DNA of 42,355 nt from a virus. The stretch's first letter is position 1, and each line of letters begins with the position of its first letter. The position numbers and the translations under genes are program-made. Shown here piece by piece: positions 2,724 through 25,812 of the stretch. The notes beneath the pieces were generated by a model, which was not told the DNA's origin, ran no database searches, and saw only the letters and a list, made by a program, of their open reading frames with translations. The DNA is taken from IMG/VR virus record IMGVR_UViG_3300048833_000282, positions 1 to 42,355 of that record; one strand, written 5' to 3'.

Positions 2724-4717
2724 TGTCGGCGCCAATCTTGCGCAAGGAATGGTTCTCGTCGGCCGAGCTCGCGTCCCTTGCGTTGCCGGGCCTCTCAACG
2801 GCCAAGCGCAAGATAAATGAACGCGCGGATGCCGAGGGCTGGGCGCTTCGCACCTGCCATCTGGGACAGGCGCTGGCGCGCAACCGCAACGCCCGCGGCG
2901 GTGGGGTGGAGTATCACGCTGCCGTGCTGCCGATCGCGGCCCGGCTGGAGCTGGTTCGGCGGGGCCTGGCGCCCGACGCTGTTGCCGACAACAAGTTGGA
3001 CGGTGGCCAGCCCCCGTCTGTGTCACCAAAGCCCGAACGGTCCAGCCTGTGGAGCTGGTTCGATGGCCGATCGGGGACGGTGAAGGCCGAGGCGGAGCGC
3101 CGGCTGCGCCTGATCGAGCAGGTGGAGGCTTCCGAACGGGCGGGCCTCAACCGCTCTGCAGCCGTTGCAACGGTCGCGATCGGCGCGGGTGTGAGCGGCG
3201 CGACCATCTGGAACTGGCTTTCGCTGGTGGCGGGTGCGCCGAGGCTGGACTGGTTGCCGGCGCTGGCGCCGCGTGCACAGGGCGGCGGCGCCGAGGCCGC
3301 AATCGACGACGAAATCTGGACGATCTTCAAGAGCGACTGGTTGCGGCCGGAGAAGCCCACGCTTTCGAGCGTCTATCGCCGGACCAAGAGCATCGCCGAC
3401 AGCCGGGGTCTCTCGATTCCCCATGTGAAGACGTTTCAGCGGCGCATCGAGCGGGAGGTGCCGCCTTCGGTGGTGACCGCGCTTCGGAACGGCGCCGAGG
3501 CTGCGCGCAAGATGCTGCCGCCGCAGATTCGATCTGTTGCGGACCTGCATGCGCTGGAGATCGTGAACATCGACGGCCACAAGTGGGACGTCTTCGTGAA
3601 GTTCCCGGCCACGGACGCCTATCAGGAGCGCGTCGCGCGCCCGATGATGGTGTGCATTCAGGACGTCTACAGCCGCAAAATCCTCGCCTGGCGCTTCGGC
3701 GACAGCGAGAATGCGGTGCTGACCCGGCTGGCGTTTGCCGACCTGTTCCAGAAATGGGGGATTCCCGACGCGGTTCTGCTGGATAACGGCCGGGCCTTCG
3801 CATCCAAGCTGATCACGGGCGGCGCAAAGACACGCTTCCGGTTCAAAATCCGTGAAGACGAGCCGTTGGGCCTGCTGACCCAGCTGCAGATCCGCAACAT
3901 GTGGGCGACGCCTTATCGCGGCCAATCGAAGCCGATTGAGCGGGCCTTCCGAGACTTCTGCGACGCCATTGCCAAGCACCCGGCCCTGGCTGGGGCCTAC
4001 ACGGGCAACAAGCCCGATGCGAAGCCGGAGAACTACGGCAGCCGAGCGGTGGACTTCGACCTGTTCGAGAAGATCGTGGCGACAGGCATCGCCGAACATA
4101 ACGCCCGCCAGGGCCGCCGCACGGAGATGGCGCGCGGCCGCAGCTTCGACGACGCCTTCAACGAATCCTATGCGGTATCGGCGATCAGGACGGCCGGGCC
4201 CGAGCAGCTGCGCCGCGCGCTACTGGCCTCCGACCGGGTGCGTGCGCACCGGGACAACGGAACGGTCGAACTCATGGGCAATCGCTATTGGCATGCCGAT
4301 CTGGCGCGGCATGCGGGCGAGCTGCTGACCGTCCGGTTCGACCCCGACAACCTGCACGGCGAGGTGCACTGCTATGACGCGAAGGAAGCCTTCATTTGTG
4401 CGGCGCCGATCTGGGCTGCGGTCGGCTTTGCAGATGCGGAGGCTGCTCGCCAGAGGGCGAAGCTGGCGGCGGATCATCGCAAGACGCTGAAGCGCGGAAT
4501 CGAGCTGCAGAAGCTGATTTCTGCAGCCGAGATCGCCGCGATGCTGCCGGATGCGGAGCCCGGCGAGGCGCCTGTGCGGAAAGTGTCGCGGATTGTGCGC
4601 ACGCGTGGGGCGGCAGCTGCCGCCGCGGTTCAGGCGGCGCCCGAGGTTGAACCTGAATTCATGGAGCGCCTCGGCCACGCGGTCGAGCGGCGCCTTCGGC
4701 TGATCGAGAACGAATGA
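2723..4717 (+). CDS. Transposase A (MuA-like DDE recombinase)
   Basis: 664 aa, same size as MuA (663). Catalyses end cleavage and strand transfer. N-terminal winged-helix domain (residues 5-70; MuA-like pattern SSAELASLALPGLSTAKR) would bind the internal enhancer. The central RNase H-fold core carries Asp284 (NIDGHKWD), Asp354 (LLDNGRAF) and Glu406 (SKPIERAFRDF), aligned with MuA D269, D336 and E392. The strongly Mu-like KHPALAGAYTG and KPENYGSRAVD motifs follow. The C-terminal basic and helical region corresponds to the B-interaction domain. A GTG at 2720 is an alternative start; ATG 2723 has better spacing from GGGGGAG. Confidence 0.97.
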   Translation: MSAPILRKEWFSSAELASLALPGLSTAKRKINERADAEGWALRTCHLGQALARNRNARGGGVEYHAAVLPIAARLELVRRGLAPDAVADNKLDGGQPPSVSPKPERSSLWSWFDGRSGTVKAEAERRLRLIEQVEASERAGLNRSAAVATVAIGAGVSGATIWNWLSLVAGAPRLDWLPALAPRAQGGGAEAAIDDEIWTIFKSDWLRPEKPTLSSVYRRTKSIADSRGLSIPHVKTFQRRIEREVPPSVVTALRNGAEAARKMLPPQIRSVADLHALEIVNIDGHKWDVFVKFPATDAYQERVARPMMVCIQDVYSRKILAWRFGDSENAVLTRLAFADLFQKWGIPDAVLLDNGRAFASKLITGGAKTRFRFKIREDEPLGLLTQLQIRNMWATPYRGQSKPIERAFRDFCDAIAKHPALAGAYTGNKPDAKPENYGSRAVDFDLFEKIVATGIAEHNARQGRRTEMARGRSFDDAFNESYAVSAIRTAGPEQLRRALLASDRVRAHRDNGTVELMGNRYWHADLARHAGELLTVRFDPDNLHGEVHCYDAKEAFICAAPIWAAVGFADAEAARQRAKLAADHRKTLKRGIELQKLISAAEIAAMLPDAEPGEAPVRKVSRIVRTRGAAAAAAVQAAPEVEPEFMERLGHAVERRLRLIENE

Positions 4718-17542: not shown

Positions 17543-17745
17543 CGCGCCCGGTGCCAACCTGCCGCCATTGCGGCGAGCCCGTGAAGCGCGGCCAGCTGAT
17601 GTGCCGCAGCCATTGGTTCGCGATCCCCAAGGCCTTGCGCCTCGCCATCAACGCCACCTGGCGCGGCCGCGAGTTCCGGGCCTATCTGGCCAATGTCCGC
17701 GAAGCCGAGCGCCTTCTGCGCGAAGATGAAGGAGCCGGAGCATGA
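17539..17745 (+). CDS. Small zinc-finger protein
   Basis: 68 aa. CxxC at Cys8/Cys11 (CRHCGEPV) and Cys22 with His25 (MCRSHWF) form a likely zinc site; the C-terminal half is a basic then acidic helix. Comparable short proteins occur beside terminase genes in alphaproteobacterial phages. Role unknown. Confidence 0.65.
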   Translation: MTRPVPTCRHCGEPVKRGQLMCRSHWFAIPKALRLAINATWRGREFRAYLANVREAERLLREDEGAGA

Positions 17746-18305
17746 ACCCCTTCATGATGCTGCGGCATTATCACTATGGCCTGATCCTGGCTGACCCACC
17801 CTGGCAGTTCGAGCTGCACAGCGACAAGGGCGAGGCCAAGAGCCCACAGGCCCACTACAGCTGCGCCACCCTGGAGGATATCGCACGGCTTCCGGTGGCA
17901 AAGCTGGCGGCGCCGGATTGCGCCCTGGTGATGTGGGCGACCGCGCCCATGCTGCCGCACGCGCTGGCCGTGATGGAGTGCTGGGGCTTCGAATTCAAAA
18001 CGGCAGGCGCCTGGGAAAAGCTTAGTAGCACCGGCTCCAAGATCGCCTTCGGCACCGGCTTCATCTTTCGCAGCGCAGCTGAATTCTATCTCGTTGGCAC
18101 ACGCGGCAAGCCCCGGCCGAAGTCCAAAAGCGTCCGCAACCTGATCGTCGCCCCGGTTCGCGAGCACAGCCGCAAGCCCGATCAGATCCATGCCGATTGC
18201 GAGGCGCTCTACGACGGGCCCTATGTTGAGCTGTTCGCCCGGCAGCGCCGCCCTGGCTGGGATGCCTGGGGCAACGAGACCGAGAAGTTCGAGGCGCTGG
18301 CATGA
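17742..18305 (+). CDS. MT-A70 family DNA adenine methyltransferase
   Basis: 187 aa. Transfers a methyl group from S-adenosylmethionine to adenine N6. The catalytic DPPW motif is at residues 18-21 (LILADPPWQF), followed by the family features LVMWATAPMLPHALAVMECWGF and a late EHSRKPDQI segment, then GWDAWGNE at the end. Size is typical of phage MT-A70 enzymes. It probably protects phage DNA against restriction. One of three methylase-like genes in the phage. Confidence 0.9.
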   Translation: MNPFMMLRHYHYGLILADPPWQFELHSDKGEAKSPQAHYSCATLEDIARLPVAKLAAPDCALVMWATAPMLPHALAVMECWGFEFKTAGAWEKLSSTGSKIAFGTGFIFRSAAEFYLVGTRGKPRPKSKSVRNLIVAPVREHSRKPDQIHADCEALYDGPYVELFARQRRPGWDAWGNETEKFEALA

Positions 18306-20071: not shown

Positions 20072-21820
20072 ATGGCCAACATCATCGACCGAACGAAAAA
20101 CTGGTTCGAGAACTTCTGGAGCAAGCCGGACCCCGGCCTGCTGAAGAAGGAACTGTCGGCCGCTGACACCGCGCACGGACGCTCGATCGATTCCTCGCAC
20201 CCCAGCATCGGCCTCACGCCGAAATCGCTGGCGCAGATCCTGCGCTCCTCAACAACGGGAAGTGCCGAGCGGCTGCTGGATCTGGCGGAGGACATGGAGG
20301 AGCGCGACCCGCACTACCTCTCCATCATGGGCACGCGGAAGCGGCAGGTCTCTCAGCTGCCCGTCACGCTGGAGGCTGCGAGCGATGGCAAGGAAGATCA
20401 GCGCGTCGTGGATTTCCTGCGGGAATGGACCACGCGCGATCTGATCGAGGGGGAAATGTTCGATGTGCTGGACGCGGTCGGCAAGTCCTACTCCGCATCG
20501 GAGCTGGTTTGGAATCAGGATGGGAAGCTCTGGTACCCGGAGGCCATCAAGTGGCGGCATCCGCGCTGGTTCGCGTTCGACCAGGCCACGGGTGAAATTC
20601 CTCTCCTGAAGGGAGGGTATGAGGGCGCCGGAGAATGGGGGATCGAGGGAGCACCGCTGCCGCCAGCCAAGTTCCTGTTCCACCTGCACCCGGCGAAATC
20701 AGGCCTGCCCATCCGCGGCGGGCTGGGCCGGGCGCTGGCCTGGACGTACCTGTTCAAAAGCTACGCGATCAAGGATTGGGTGAGCTTCGTGGAGCTGTAT
20801 GGCCGCCCGCTTCGGATCGGGAAATACCCGGCCGGATCGACCGAGCGCCAGATCGACACGCTTATGGAGGCGGTGGAGGGGATCGGCCACGACTTCGCGG
20901 CGGTGATCCCGCAATCCATGCTGATCGACATTGTGGAAGCGAAGGCCGCCGCAAGCGCAGGCGTCTATCGCGAACTGGCTGAGTATCTCGACCAGCAGAT
21001 GTCGAAGGCCGTGTTGGGGCAAACGGCCACCACTGACAGTGTGACCGGCGGGCTTGGCTCGGGGAAAGAGCATGGCGAAGTGCGGGCCGATATCGAGCGC
21101 GCTGATGCCAAGCTGGTTGCTGCCTCGCTACGTCGTGACGTTTTGGCACCCATGGTTCGGCTGAACTTCGGCGAAGGCGTGCCGGTGCCCAAGGTCCGCA
21201 TTGGTCGCGAGGAGGATTGGGACCCGGGCAAGATGATGCCGGCAATCAAGACCTTAGTGGACATGGGCGGCCGGGTGGAGGAATCCGTCGTGCGGGACAG
21301 GCTGGGCCTGCCCGATCCGCCGGAAGGCCCGGAGGTGAAGCTGCTGGGAAAGCCCGCCGCAGAGCCGGACCCCGAAAATCTGCCCGCCAGCAAACGCAAG
21401 GGCCAAAATGGCCCGGAGATGCCTGAAACGGCCTCGACCCGGTTCTTAGGTGCCTCTTATCGTTCTTATTCGGCATCCCCGGGGGAAGGGGCGCTCGCCG
21501 AAGTCGTTGCAGCCGCCGTGGCCGAGCGCGTGGCCGAAAAGCTGGGCTCGGCCGGAGATTTGCTGGTCGCCGCGAATTCCGGGCGCGGCGGTATCGATGT
21601 CGATCAGCAGATCGCCAATATCTTGTCGGAGGACTGGGAGGAAATTCTGTCTCCGATGGTCGATCCGGTAGTCGCGGCCATGCAGCGCGCCACCACTTAC
21701 GAGGGCGCGATCGAGGCGCTGACGGCCAGCCTGGACGCGATGGACACCGCCGCGCTGGAAGGCGCGGTCGCCCGCGGCAGCCTGGTCGCGCGCTCCGTCG
21801 CGCTGGGGGGTGGGGAATGA
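20072..21820 (+). CDS. Portal protein, gp29-like (DUF935)
   Basis: 582 aa. Matches Mu gp29 in size and features: ILRSSTTGSAERLLDLAEDM, the MGTRKRQV segment, SYSASELVWNQDGKL, and the C-terminal LVDMGGRVEESVVRDRLGLP. Twelve copies would form the DNA channel at the capsid vertex. GAGGAACCCC precedes the ATG. The C-terminal 130 residues are alanine-rich and more variable. Confidence 0.92.
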   Translation: MANIIDRTKNWFENFWSKPDPGLLKKELSAADTAHGRSIDSSHPSIGLTPKSLAQILRSSTTGSAERLLDLAEDMEERDPHYLSIMGTRKRQVSQLPVTLEAASDGKEDQRVVDFLREWTTRDLIEGEMFDVLDAVGKSYSASELVWNQDGKLWYPEAIKWRHPRWFAFDQATGEIPLLKGGYEGAGEWGIEGAPLPPAKFLFHLHPAKSGLPIRGGLGRALAWTYLFKSYAIKDWVSFVELYGRPLRIGKYPAGSTERQIDTLMEAVEGIGHDFAAVIPQSMLIDIVEAKAAASAGVYRELAEYLDQQMSKAVLGQTATTDSVTGGLGSGKEHGEVRADIERADAKLVAASLRRDVLAPMVRLNFGEGVPVPKVRIGREEDWDPGKMMPAIKTLVDMGGRVEESVVRDRLGLPDPPEGPEVKLLGKPAAEPDPENLPASKRKGQNGPEMPETASTRFLGASYRSYSASPGEGALAEVVAAAVAERVAEKLGSAGDLLVAANSGRGGIDVDQQIANILSEDWEEILSPMVDPVVAAMQRATTYEGAIEALTASLDAMDTAALEGAVARGSLVARSVALGGGE

Positions 21821-22072: not shown

Positions 22073-22237
22073 ATGGCAGACGAGACGAAGATCGACGCGA
22101 CCGAGGCGATGGTGGCCGACGCGATCGCCGCCATGGAGGACGCAAACGTCTGGTTCGCAGAAGTGTTCGAATGGAATGAAAAGCGTGATCTCGCCAGGGC
22201 GGCACTGGTAGCCGGGTTGGCGGTGGCTCATGGCTGA
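22073..22237 (+). CDS. Small acidic protein
   Basis: 54 aa, with the best ribosome-binding site of the region (AGGAGGG, 7 bp before ATG), which suggests independent and strong translation. Acidic helix (DETKIDATEAMVADAIAAME) then NVWFAEVFEWNEKRD. No known family. Confidence 0.65.
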   Translation: MADETKIDATEAMVADAIAAMEDANVWFAEVFEWNEKRDLARAALVAGLAVAHG

Positions 22238-22511
22238 ATGGCTGGAAACGGCCGGTGCCGAGATCGCGCGGATCGATGCCGCCAGCCCGGCCGGCGCCAC
22301 AGTGGAGCAGCGCCTGGCCGCGATCGACGCCGGCTATCCCTTCGGCGCCCGGCGCTGCTTTGCCTACAAGGCCTGGCTGAAGGCGCGCCGGGAATGGCGC
22401 GGCCGCAATGGCGCGCCGATACCCCGCCGCCTCGAAACGCCACTGGAGCGCGCCATTCGCGGAACCCGCGAGGCTGAAGCCGCGCGCACACCACAACTTC
22501 AACAAGCCTGA
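22230..22511 (+). CDS. Small protein, unknown
   Basis: 93 aa. Contains VEQRLAAIDAGYPFGARRCF and a basic helix (AYKAWLKARREWRGR). Compact, possibly a nucleic-acid-binding protein. Overlaps the previous gene by 8 bp. Confidence 0.6.
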   Translation: MAEWLETAGAEIARIDAASPAGATVEQRLAAIDAGYPFGARRCFAYKAWLKARREWRGRNGAPIPRRLETPLERAIRGTREAEAARTPQLQQA

Positions 22512-22524
22512 CCAGGAGAAGACG

Positions 22525-22761
22525 ATGGACCTTTGCCAACCGGCCCCGGCCGAGTTCACGGCCGAGCAGCTGCAGGCCGACCAGATCCTGCGCTACTTCC
22601 ACTATAGCCACCTGCCGGCGCCGCTGCAGGCGGTGTCGAAACCGTTCTGCGATCTGGCGCGGACGATGGTGGAGCAGCTGCCCCGAAACGCAGAACGCTC
22701 GGCCGGGCTGCGCAAGCTGCTGGAAGCCAAGGACTGCGCCGTTCGGGCGAATGTGTCGTGA
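22525..22761 (+). CDS. Acb2-like candidate anti-CBASS protein
   Basis: 78 aa, GGAGAAG before the ATG. Two-helix hairpin pattern: ADQILRYFHYSHLPAPLQ, then AVSKPFCDLARTMVEQLP, then SAGLRKLLEAKDCAVRA. This resembles the Acb2/Tad1 hairpin family (phage T4 Vs.4-like), whose proteins form hexamers that bind cyclic di- and trinucleotides and so silence CBASS defence. The aromatic FHY and the LRKLLEAKD-A segment are the parts most like the family. The call is from memory of the family pattern and needs a profile search. Neighbours are short unknown genes, as expected for an anti-defence island. Confidence 0.55.
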   Translation: MDLCQPAPAEFTAEQLQADQILRYFHYSHLPAPLQAVSKPFCDLARTMVEQLPRNAERSAGLRKLLEAKDCAVRANVS

Positions 22762-23000
22762 AATCCCGGTTGAAAGGCCACCGGCATGGCCAGCTGCAGC
22801 TGCTGCTTGATGCCGGAGCTCGGTCGCTCGAGACGGCCGTGCCGGTCGGGTTCGGCGGCGGCTTCCGGCCCGTAACGCTCAGCGCGATGATAGGAGAGGG
22901 GCTGGTGAAGAACGCCTATCTTCCGCTGAAGGGCGATGCCCGCCGCCGCACCAGCCACTACTGGTTGTCTCCGGCCGGCGAGAAGGCGCTGGCGGGATGA
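22758..23000 (+). CDS. Small winged-helix-like protein
   Basis: 80 aa. LSAMIGEGLVKNAYLPLKG then RRTSHYWLSPAGEKALAG has the look of the wing and last strand of a small winged helix (compare AGEKALA ends of MarR-like and phage regulators). Basic overall. ATGA-type overlap with the gene before and after. Possible local regulator. Confidence 0.55.
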   Translation: MKSRLKGHRHGQLQLLLDAGARSLETAVPVGFGGGFRPVTLSAMIGEGLVKNAYLPLKGDARRRTSHYWLSPAGEKALAG

Positions 23001-23683
23001 ACCCTGCTCTTCGCGTGCTGATCGGCTGCGAGCGGAGCGGCACTGTGCGCGACGCGTTCTTGAGGCGCGGGCATGACGCTTGGAGCTGCGATCTCGAGCC
23101 AGACATTCGGGGAAGCAATCGCCACATAAGGGGGGATATTCGAAAGCAGCTCGTTCGGGGCCTCTGGGATCTGTTGATCGTGCTGCATCCGCCCTGCACC
23201 CGTCTCTGCAAGTCGGGGCTTCGCTGGCTGCACACACCTCCGCCCGGCCGGACGCTCGAAGAGATGTTCCGGGAGCTGGATGAGGCCGCCGATCTTTTCA
23301 GCGCCTGTCTAAACGCGCCGATCAAGCGCAAAGCCATCGAGAACCCGCGCATGCACAAGCTCGCGCAGCAACGGATCCGGAATTATCGCCACCCCGATCA
23401 GATCGCGCAGCCCCACCAGTTCGGAGACCCCGAGTTCAAAGGGATCGGGCTTTGGCTGGAAGAATTGCCGCTGCTGGTCGAAACGGCGCCACTCGTCGTT
23501 CCCGAGCGGGGAACAGAGGAGTGGGTGGCTTGGTCGCGCGTGCATAGAGCATCCGGTTGGGGCGCCGCGGGCCGCCGCCGCGCCGAGGAGCGCTCGCGCT
23601 TTTTCCCGGGAATCGCCGACGCCATGGCGGATCAGTGGGGCGGCTGGGCAAACGACAACATCAACGCCGAGCTGGCCGCATGA
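22997..23683 (+). CDS. DNA cytosine methylase-like protein
   Basis: 228 aa. Rossmann start VLIGCERSGTVRDAFLRRGH, SCDLEPD, then the catalytic-type motif HPPCT (residues 64-68) followed by SGLRWLH, then ENPRMHKLA and QFGDPEFKGIGLWLEELP. This is the phage group usually annotated as cytosine-C5 methylase-like; it is shorter than Dcm and lacks an obvious target-recognition domain, so the activity is unproven. Could protect phage DNA or make a modified base. Confidence 0.65.
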   Translation: MNPALRVLIGCERSGTVRDAFLRRGHDAWSCDLEPDIRGSNRHIRGDIRKQLVRGLWDLLIVLHPPCTRLCKSGLRWLHTPPPGRTLEEMFRELDEAADLFSACLNAPIKRKAIENPRMHKLAQQRIRNYRHPDQIAQPHQFGDPEFKGIGLWLEELPLLVETAPLVVPERGTEEWVAWSRVHRASGWGAAGRRRAEERSRFFPGIADAMADQWGGWANDNINAELAA

Positions 23684-24486: not shown

Positions 24487-25812
24487 GTGGCCGACGAACC
24501 TTCCACTACCATCCGCCAGCAGCTGAACCTGCCGCCAGAGGAGATGCTGCGGTATCTCCGCGCGAAGGACTATCAGCTGACGGTGGACTGGGCGGAGGCC
24601 TGGCACGACGATCATGTCCGCGCCTTCACGGTCGCCAAGGTGGCGCAATATGATCTGCTGGAGACGATCCGCGCCTCGATCGACGATGCCTGGGCGAGCG
24701 GCAAGACTGTCGATCAATGGCAGGACGAGCTTATCCCCCAGTTGCAGAAGAAGGGCTGGTGGGGCCTGGTGGAAGACCGGCGGGTGACCGGCACGGATGA
24801 CGCGGTGTTCATCGGGCCGAAGCGGCTGGAGAATATCTTCGTCACCAACTTCCGCATGGCAGGCGCGGCGGCGGGATGGAAGCGCATTCAGGCTGCCAAG
24901 AAGCTGCTGCCGTTCCTGCTCTACAAAACCAAGGGCGACGAGCATGTCCGCCACAGCCATGTGTTGCTCAACAACATCCTGCTGCCCGTCGACCACCCGT
25001 TCTGGCTGGTCTATTTCCCGCCGAACGACTGGGGTTGCCGCTGCGATTATGAGCAGCTGAACCAACGCATGCTCAACCGGCGCGGCCTGAAGGTGACGCC
25101 GGAATCCGAGCTGCCCGAGCGCGCGCCGCGCCTGTTCTGGCGGCCGGGGATTACCACGCCGGAGGTTGTGCCGGCGCTGGTTGGCCCCGGGTTCGGTTAC
25201 AACCCGGGCGTTGCTTATCTGAAATCCTTCGAGCCGCCCCGGCTGGATGCGCCGCTGCTGGGCCCCAGCCTGGCGATGCGCGGGCCGGATGGGCCGATCG
25301 CGCCGCTTCCCAGTCCGCCGCGCCGCCTCCCGGCCGAAACCCTGCTGCCTGCGGACATCAGCGACGAGGCCGCGGTCGCGCGCTTCGTGGATAGTTTCCG
25401 GCCGGTTTCGCAGTCAGTGGGCGACGAGCTGGTGTTCACCGATGCCACCGGCCATCCGGTGGTGGTCTCGCCGCGCTTCTTCCATCGGCCCGACGGCACC
25501 GGTAAGCTCAACTCAGAGCGGCGCGCCAACATCCTGTTGCTGGCAGAGGCCATTCGGGAGCCCGACGAGATCTGGCGCGTGTGGGAGAAGGTGTTCACCT
25601 CGCCCGAGCGAACCGCGTTCCGCTGGCGCCTTACCCGCCGATATGTTGCTCGGTTCGATATTGAAGGCGACACGCGCCAGGCTGTGGTTGCAGCGCAGGT
25701 TGGCAAGGATGGCTGGTATGGCGTGACCGCCTTCCCCGCCGCACCAAACTATGTCGAGAAAGAACGGGTGCGGGGCGGCGTGCTGGCCTGGCGGCGCGTG
25801 ACGGAGGAGTAG
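24487..25812 (+). CDS. MuF head protein with C-terminal nuclease-toxin-like domain
   Basis: 441 aa. The N-terminal 200 residues are a gpF/SPP1 gp7-type head morphogenesis domain (GWWGLVEDRRVTGTDDAVF ... the zinc-like HVRHSHVLLNN and WGCRCDYEQL). After a proline-rich linker (residues 255-290), residues about 305-430 look like a PBECR-type phage nuclease domain of the barnase/EndoU/colicin E5/RelE group: ELVFTDATGHPVVVSPRFF, REPDEIWRVWEKV, and the final GWYGVTAFP. MuF proteins with such toxins are packaged in virions. GTG start. Confidence 0.85.
   Translation: MADEPSTTIRQQLNLPPEEMLRYLRAKDYQLTVDWAEAWHDDHVRAFTVAKVAQYDLLETIRASIDDAWASGKTVDQWQDELIPQLQKKGWWGLVEDRRVTGTDDAVFIGPKRLENIFVTNFRMAGAAAGWKRIQAAKKLLPFLLYKTKGDEHVRHSHVLLNNILLPVDHPFWLVYFPPNDWGCRCDYEQLNQRMLNRRGLKVTPESELPERAPRLFWRPGITTPEVVPALVGPGFGYNPGVAYLKSFEPPRLDAPLLGPSLAMRGPDGPIAPLPSPPRRLPAETLLPADISDEAAVARFVDSFRPVSQSVGDELVFTDATGHPVVVSPRFFHRPDGTGKLNSERRANILLLAEAIREPDEIWRVWEKVFTSPERTAFRWRLTRRYVARFDIEGDTRQAVVAAQVGKDGWYGVTAFPAAPNYVEKERVRGGVLAWRRVTEE

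Follow-up and report, generated by a model that had tools for sequence, protein, structure and literature searches.

The closest described systems are Acb2 and Tad1 (Thoeris anti-defence 1), which sequester bacterial alarm nucleotides. The C-terminal hairpin of Tad1, a protein that also has an N-terminal β-sheet, falls in PF24729 (Acb2_Tad1_hairpin), the Pfam family that it shares with Acb2; T4 Acb2 (Vs.4, PDB 7uq2) matches this family at 71 bits, the curated cut-off being 27 bits. In PaMx33 Acb2 (p26, PDB 8h2j and 8ixz), residues Y11, K26, and R67 presumably have a role in the pocket, with K26 as the pocket lysine. The Acb2 fold comprises a short helix and two long helices that run antiparallel (PMC10419184, PMC12043709). 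In the T4 protein, the Y8A substitution leads to a binding-deficient phenotype, while T68M lowers binding (PMC12657230). Sponges of the Acb2 type trigger the Panoptes operon (PMC12657218, PMC12657230). Actinophage-type members of PF24729 (phrog_1454, which is the PF24729 family; PDB 9ptq, "Acb2 homolog 43") were used as a reference set. All 13 of them matched PF24729, and in the PDB, a profile built from them picked up "Acb2 homolog 43" as well as Tad1 chains. Since a search of ~200 genomes from the order of one related host yielded few PF24729 members, the reference set was drawn from phages and viral contigs.

The window, i.e., the whole stretch of DNA that was analyzed, is 42,355 bases long (virus record IMGVR_UViG_3300048833_000282). 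Based on PHROG profile matches, it encodes a Mu-type transposase (phrog_310) and a DNA transposition protein (phrog_296), and it also carries Mu-type genes for a portal, an F-like head protein, and an I-like protease. As an earlier note on this DNA had claimed, the phage is transposable; it is a MuA/MuB-bearing, Mu-like phage. The gene under study, P0001 (22525..22761, plus strand), codes for a 78-amino acid protein. It starts with an ATG at 22525, six bases downstream of an AGGAG ribosome-binding site (22514..22518, plus strand), and ends with a TGA at 22759–22761. When compared with its eight nearest relatives, P0001 showed 16–38 synonymous and 19–25 non-synonymous codon differences, and thus is a conserved coding sequence under protein-level constraint. 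The ribosome-binding site, this constraint, and the presence of relatives in hundreds of phages indicate that the 78-residue open reading frame singled out in the earlier note is real. No RNA structure was found in the start region, and neither a promoter nor a terminator was found in the surroundings of the gene. ORFs on the opposite strand over P0001 were rejected, as family searches gave them no backing.

P0001 is located between the portal gene (20072–21820) and the F-like gene (24487–25812), in a cassette of plus-strand genes. An upstream small ORF of 93 amino acids (22230..22511) and a downstream ORF of 80 amino acids (22758..23000), whose start overlaps the P0001 stop by four bases, have no family match. 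The final four bases of the downstream ORF are shared with a gene for a DNA methyltransferase (22997..23683; phrog_757, E = 1.6e-48), which is a candidate for a second counter-defence gene of the cassette. A second DNA methyltransferase is encoded elsewhere in the window (17742–18305; MT-A70/phrog_359), and both methyltransferases are candidate anti-restriction genes. A homologue of the phrog_757 methyltransferase is found close to a P0001-family member at another locus (L108), and in Gordonia phage Jumbo, a DNA methylase gene lies four genes 3′ of the family member. At its C-terminus, the F-like head protein of the window has a PBECR2 nuclease-like domain (E = 1e-23); here, a virion protein is joined to an RNase domain of the toxin type.

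P0001 matches two PHROGs, 1761 (E = 5.2e-31, residues 15–78) and 5120 (E = 7.9e-22, residues 19–77), both annotated without function; a literature search on the PHROG/Pfam identifiers and the LRKLLEAKD motif found no publication. Relatives are present in 371 phage records and in viral contigs, of which 411 were confirmed in one scan and at least 562 in a second scan that used a different pattern. The family also occurs in prophage-like loci on 32 genome contigs from many phyla, and the phages that carry it have hosts as diverse as Proteobacteria, Actinobacteria, Bacteroidota, and Planctomycetes. Conservation counts and structure prediction were based on an alignment of 134 family members. Residues F25, H29, L30, E67, K69, D70, V73, and R74 are invariant in this alignment, while S38, A45, E57, R63, K64, L65, and L66 are nearly invariant. 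In diverged relatives from mycobacteriophages Nigel and KayaCho (L297 and L298), LRKLLEAKDCFVR or LRKLLEAQDCFLR is retained but the FxYxHLP motif is gone; conservation of the last helix is thus independent of that of the loop. Some relatives have N-terminal extensions, which bear no resemblance to Tad1. One relative, phiOH_p62 of Ochrobactrum phage vB_OspP_OH (L290, 765–1133), has two domains, an N-terminal CxxCxGxG zinc-knuckle (DnaJ/anti-TRAP-like) and the hairpin. The name "anti-TRAP" given to this homologue derives from the extra zinc-knuckle, which P0001 lacks, and was not adopted.

The relation of P0001 to PF24729 was studied in several ways. In the profile search against the Acb2/Tad1 hairpin family proposed in the earlier note, the single P0001 sequence gave no PF24729 match at E ≤ 1 or E ≤ 10, and the best-scoring of its relatives reached 16.4 bits, under the 27-bit cut-off. 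Sub-threshold matches, both in register, were obtained for the relative from phage AGM5 against PF24729 (E = 0.011) and for the P0001 single sequence against phrog_1454 (E = 0.02). Alignment of the P0001 family with PF24729 members by hhalign gave E values between 7e-6 and 2.4e-5 if the alignments were trimmed or deep, and 7.5e-5 if they were untrimmed. From 52 to 58 columns, spanning the N-terminal loop, both helices, and the turn, were in register, with a probability of 76–84%, which falls below the usual comfort level of 90–95%. The observed hhalign scores of 29.5–30.4 were reached by 0 of 300 shuffled controls in each of three schemes, with maxima of 19.0–19.1, 23.8, and 28.1 for blocks of one, four, and seven columns, respectively. 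The seven-column shuffles, which preserve helical periodicity, approached the real score (28.1 vs. 29.5), while none of 14 decoy families made up of neighbouring ORFs scored above 13.9, as opposed to 30.4. When 5,951 pooled ORFs were searched with hmmsearch, the PF24729 HMM recovered its own members and then, from E = 2e-4, almost exclusively P0001-family members; the P0001-family HMM likewise recovered its own members and then, from E = 0.002, PF24729 members. P0001 itself ranked 197th in the PF24729 search (E = 0.66), inside the P0001-family block, so that the family as a whole gives a clear signal and this member a weak one. No direct match to the T4/PaMx33 Acb2 branch was obtained with hhalign (probability 0.5%).

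Two other sequence matches were considered and rejected. P1 Gp22 (PDB 8jaj), the best PDB match of a 23-sequence profile (E = 0.0034), was judged to be a chance hit, since it is the tail sheath of P1, only half of the domain was aligned, and the E value rose to 0.033 with a deeper profile. Matches to Dps (best E of 6e-4 in NCBIfam and 0.08–0.6 in the PDB) are limited to one helix-turn-helix segment and become weaker as the profile deepens.

An AlphaFold2 model of P0001 based on the 134-sequence alignment has a pLDDT of 93.4 and bears out the two-helix pattern seen in the earlier note. A predicted helix turn (residues 13–18) and a short N-terminal helix (residues 20–25; 22582..22599, plus strand) precede two long helices, α2 (residues 32–51; 22618..22677, plus strand) and α3 (residues 56–75; 22690..22749, plus strand), the latter bearing the nearly invariant LRKLLEAKDCAVRA. 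A control model of a PF24729 member has helices at 2–7, 16–39, and 44–65. The P0001 model thus matches, at the level of prediction, both the anatomy of Acb2, including that of the T4 and PaMx33 proteins, and the control. No strand corresponding to the N-terminal β-sheet of Tad1 was found in the model of the 78-residue protein. In a Foldseek search of viral models, the protein's own family came first, followed mostly by proteins named "Acb2/Tad1 hairpin": between ranks 9 and 35, at least 12 entries from outside the family are named "Acb2/Tad1 hairpin domain-containing protein". A Foldseek search of the PDB with the P0001 model gave no useful match, either to Acb2 or to Tad1. The latter result carries little weight, since a positive control, a certified PF24729 member, retrieved T4 Acb2 (7uq2) first but at E = 2.

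At the level of individual positions, P0001 and the actinophage-type members have in common their length, helix order, FxY(x)HxP loop, a proline turn followed by Glu, and KLxEA in the last helix. The FxYxHLP motif of P0001 (residues 25–31; 22597..22617, plus strand) aligns with FxYHxP of PF24729. The P0001 family has a loop before the long helix that is ~5–6 residues shorter, and LRKLLEAKDCAVRA in place of the TxxEEAM.WANA.IAR of the actinophage-type proteins. The LRKLLEAKD segment, on which the earlier note relied, is present in P0001, as part of LRKLLEAKDCA at residues 62–72, but is not itself the signature of Acb2; the hairpin family has TKLEEAM.WANA there. In comparison with T4 and PaMx33 Acb2, P0001 has a shorter turn between the long helices.

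The Pfam register and hhalign were used to map T4 Acb2 residues onto P0001. The ligand residue Y8 aligns with Y27 of the FxYxHLP motif, which is a tyrosine in 117 and an aromatic residue in 127 of the 134 family members. The position of T68 is occupied by R63, an arginine in 132 of the 134 members. T4 R79 aligns with the invariant R74 in the shared family register, while the position of PaMx33 K26 falls on S38/K39. According to a helical wheel, R63, E67, D70, and R74 (i, i + 4, i + 7, i + 11) would point to the same side of the last helix. With the tyrosine retained and T68 changed to arginine, the pocket is partly kept and partly changed, and because of the changed residue, the ligand of P0001 may differ from that of T4 Acb2.

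The genomic location of family members is variable. In phages with Mu portal and F proteins, the gene lies 5′ of the portal gene, between the portal and F genes, or 3′ of F; several of the closest relatives (L211, L213, and L218) come from viral records in which no Mu portal was detected, although these may be incomplete. Named phages have relatives close to the terminase gene, among head genes, within lysis cassettes, or close to the right end, and replication regions also harbor them. The nearest same-strand ORFs belong to 150 different PHROGs, each seen five times or less. Given their shifting positions in Mu-like head operons and the lack of fixed neighbours, the P0001-family genes behave as accessory, not structural, genes. 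Acb2 genes scatter similarly: in JBD67, which is also a transposable phage, the gene is in the head operon, 3′ of the major head protein gene; the copy in Vibrio phage D305 is directly 3′ of the portal gene, and that in prophi91-3 lies between the lysin B and holin genes. In a single case among ~190 loci (L077), a P0001-family gene (2989–3222) is followed, after a 5-bp gap, by a PF24729 gene (3228–3443), which scores 41.9 bits against the cut-off of 27.

Taken together, the profile alignments and the predicted fold make it very likely that P0001 belongs to the Acb2/Tad1 hairpin superfamily in a broad sense that extends beyond the Pfam model, and its family is probably a new, remote, previously unannotated clade of this superfamily. 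Chance convergence of short amphipathic helical hairpins that have no ancestry in common with Acb2/Tad1 appears improbable. The two-helix hairpin is a widespread fold, weak sequence matches are also obtained with Dps and designed helical repeats, the PDB fold search was empty, and block shuffles came near the observed score; yet the FxYxHLP/FxYHxP motif, the turn, the position of the gap, and the last helix align in order, the reciprocal HMM ranking is clean, and it is Acb2/Tad1 hairpin proteins in particular that are matched among viral folds. Of the family assignment made in the earlier note, remote homology and the predicted fold hold, while the PF24729 cut-off, the missing match to the T4/PaMx33 branch, and the replacement of T68 speak against it. 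Since scores remain under the curated cut-off, P0001 is filed neither as a PF24729 nor as an Acb2 member, and the label "Acb2-type" is too specific.

Sequestration of a nucleotide signal is the best explanation of P0001 function, though we favor it by a modest degree. That P0001 is a true Acb2-type anti-CBASS sponge for the Acb2 ligands 3′,3′-cGAMP and cA3 is rather unlikely: the predicted anatomy, the remote homology, the ligand tyrosine retained as Y27, and the locations of the JBD67 and D305 genes agree with such a role, but direct similarity to the T4/PaMx33 branch is lacking, T68 is replaced by R63, and the PaMx33 lysine K26 falls on S38/K39. A protein that shares the hairpin fold and ancestry but does another job without binding nucleotides, e.g., as a small assembly factor or an inhibitor of a host protein, is a somewhat stronger contender, if still a doubtful one. 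Counter-defence genes are often fast-evolving, and the extreme conservation of the last helix of P0001, which is unlike many of them, counts against a sponge; a helix so conserved in phages of many phyla would fit a partner, be it a protein or a ligand, that does not change, and in the window, P0001 sits among head genes. However, relatives are not tied to head genes, being found in lysis, replication, and other regions next to ~150 neighbour PHROGs, and, where phages have the head module in common, the gene varies in position, which speaks against a structural part. Anti-CBASS activity is plausible and a reasonable hypothesis, not a result, because there is no PF24729 match, no match to the T4/PaMx33 branch, and a ligand-site residue is changed.

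In the favored explanation, P0001 is a minimal helical-hairpin protein, probably from a remote clade of the Acb2/Tad1 hairpin superfamily, and may self-assemble into a hexamer-like oligomer, as do Acb2 and the hairpin part of Tad1. Pockets between protomers, presumably using the conserved Y27 of the FxYxHLP loop and the charged stripe R63-E67-D70-R74, would sequester a nucleotide immune signal, and the phage could thereby blunt CBASS, Thoeris, or related signalling defence. More tentatively, PHROG 1761/5120 may be a large unrecognized clade of nucleotide sponges with their own pocket (Y27, R63, E67, D70, and R74) and possibly a new ligand. In that case, the Acb2/Tad1 superfamily would be enlarged by a big clade spread over many host phyla, hundreds of "hypothetical" phage genes would gain a testable function, and a new ligand would be an immune signal outside the range of known sponges. 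The differing pocket residues make a ligand screen worthwhile, and the identity of the ligand could reveal the defence signals met by these phages; with a small gene and a high-confidence model, the function of P0001 is easy to test.

Several additional small ORFs were noticed at the loci studied. At L197, a PF24729 gene (401–604) is accompanied by a second, diverged hairpin ORF that starts at 634 (A6 HMM, E = 1.5e-4). At L278 (from 2162) and L282 (from 1510), a small cysteine-rich ORF ending in KKLEDALFWLKHSI is located ~300 bp after the family member, and shows a weak likeness to the PF24729 helix (E = 1.1). The PaMx41 acb2 homologue (L129, 201–479) contains an in-frame stop at codon 37 and is annotated as a short ORF only; the stop matches the reported X37Q mutation (PMC10419184).
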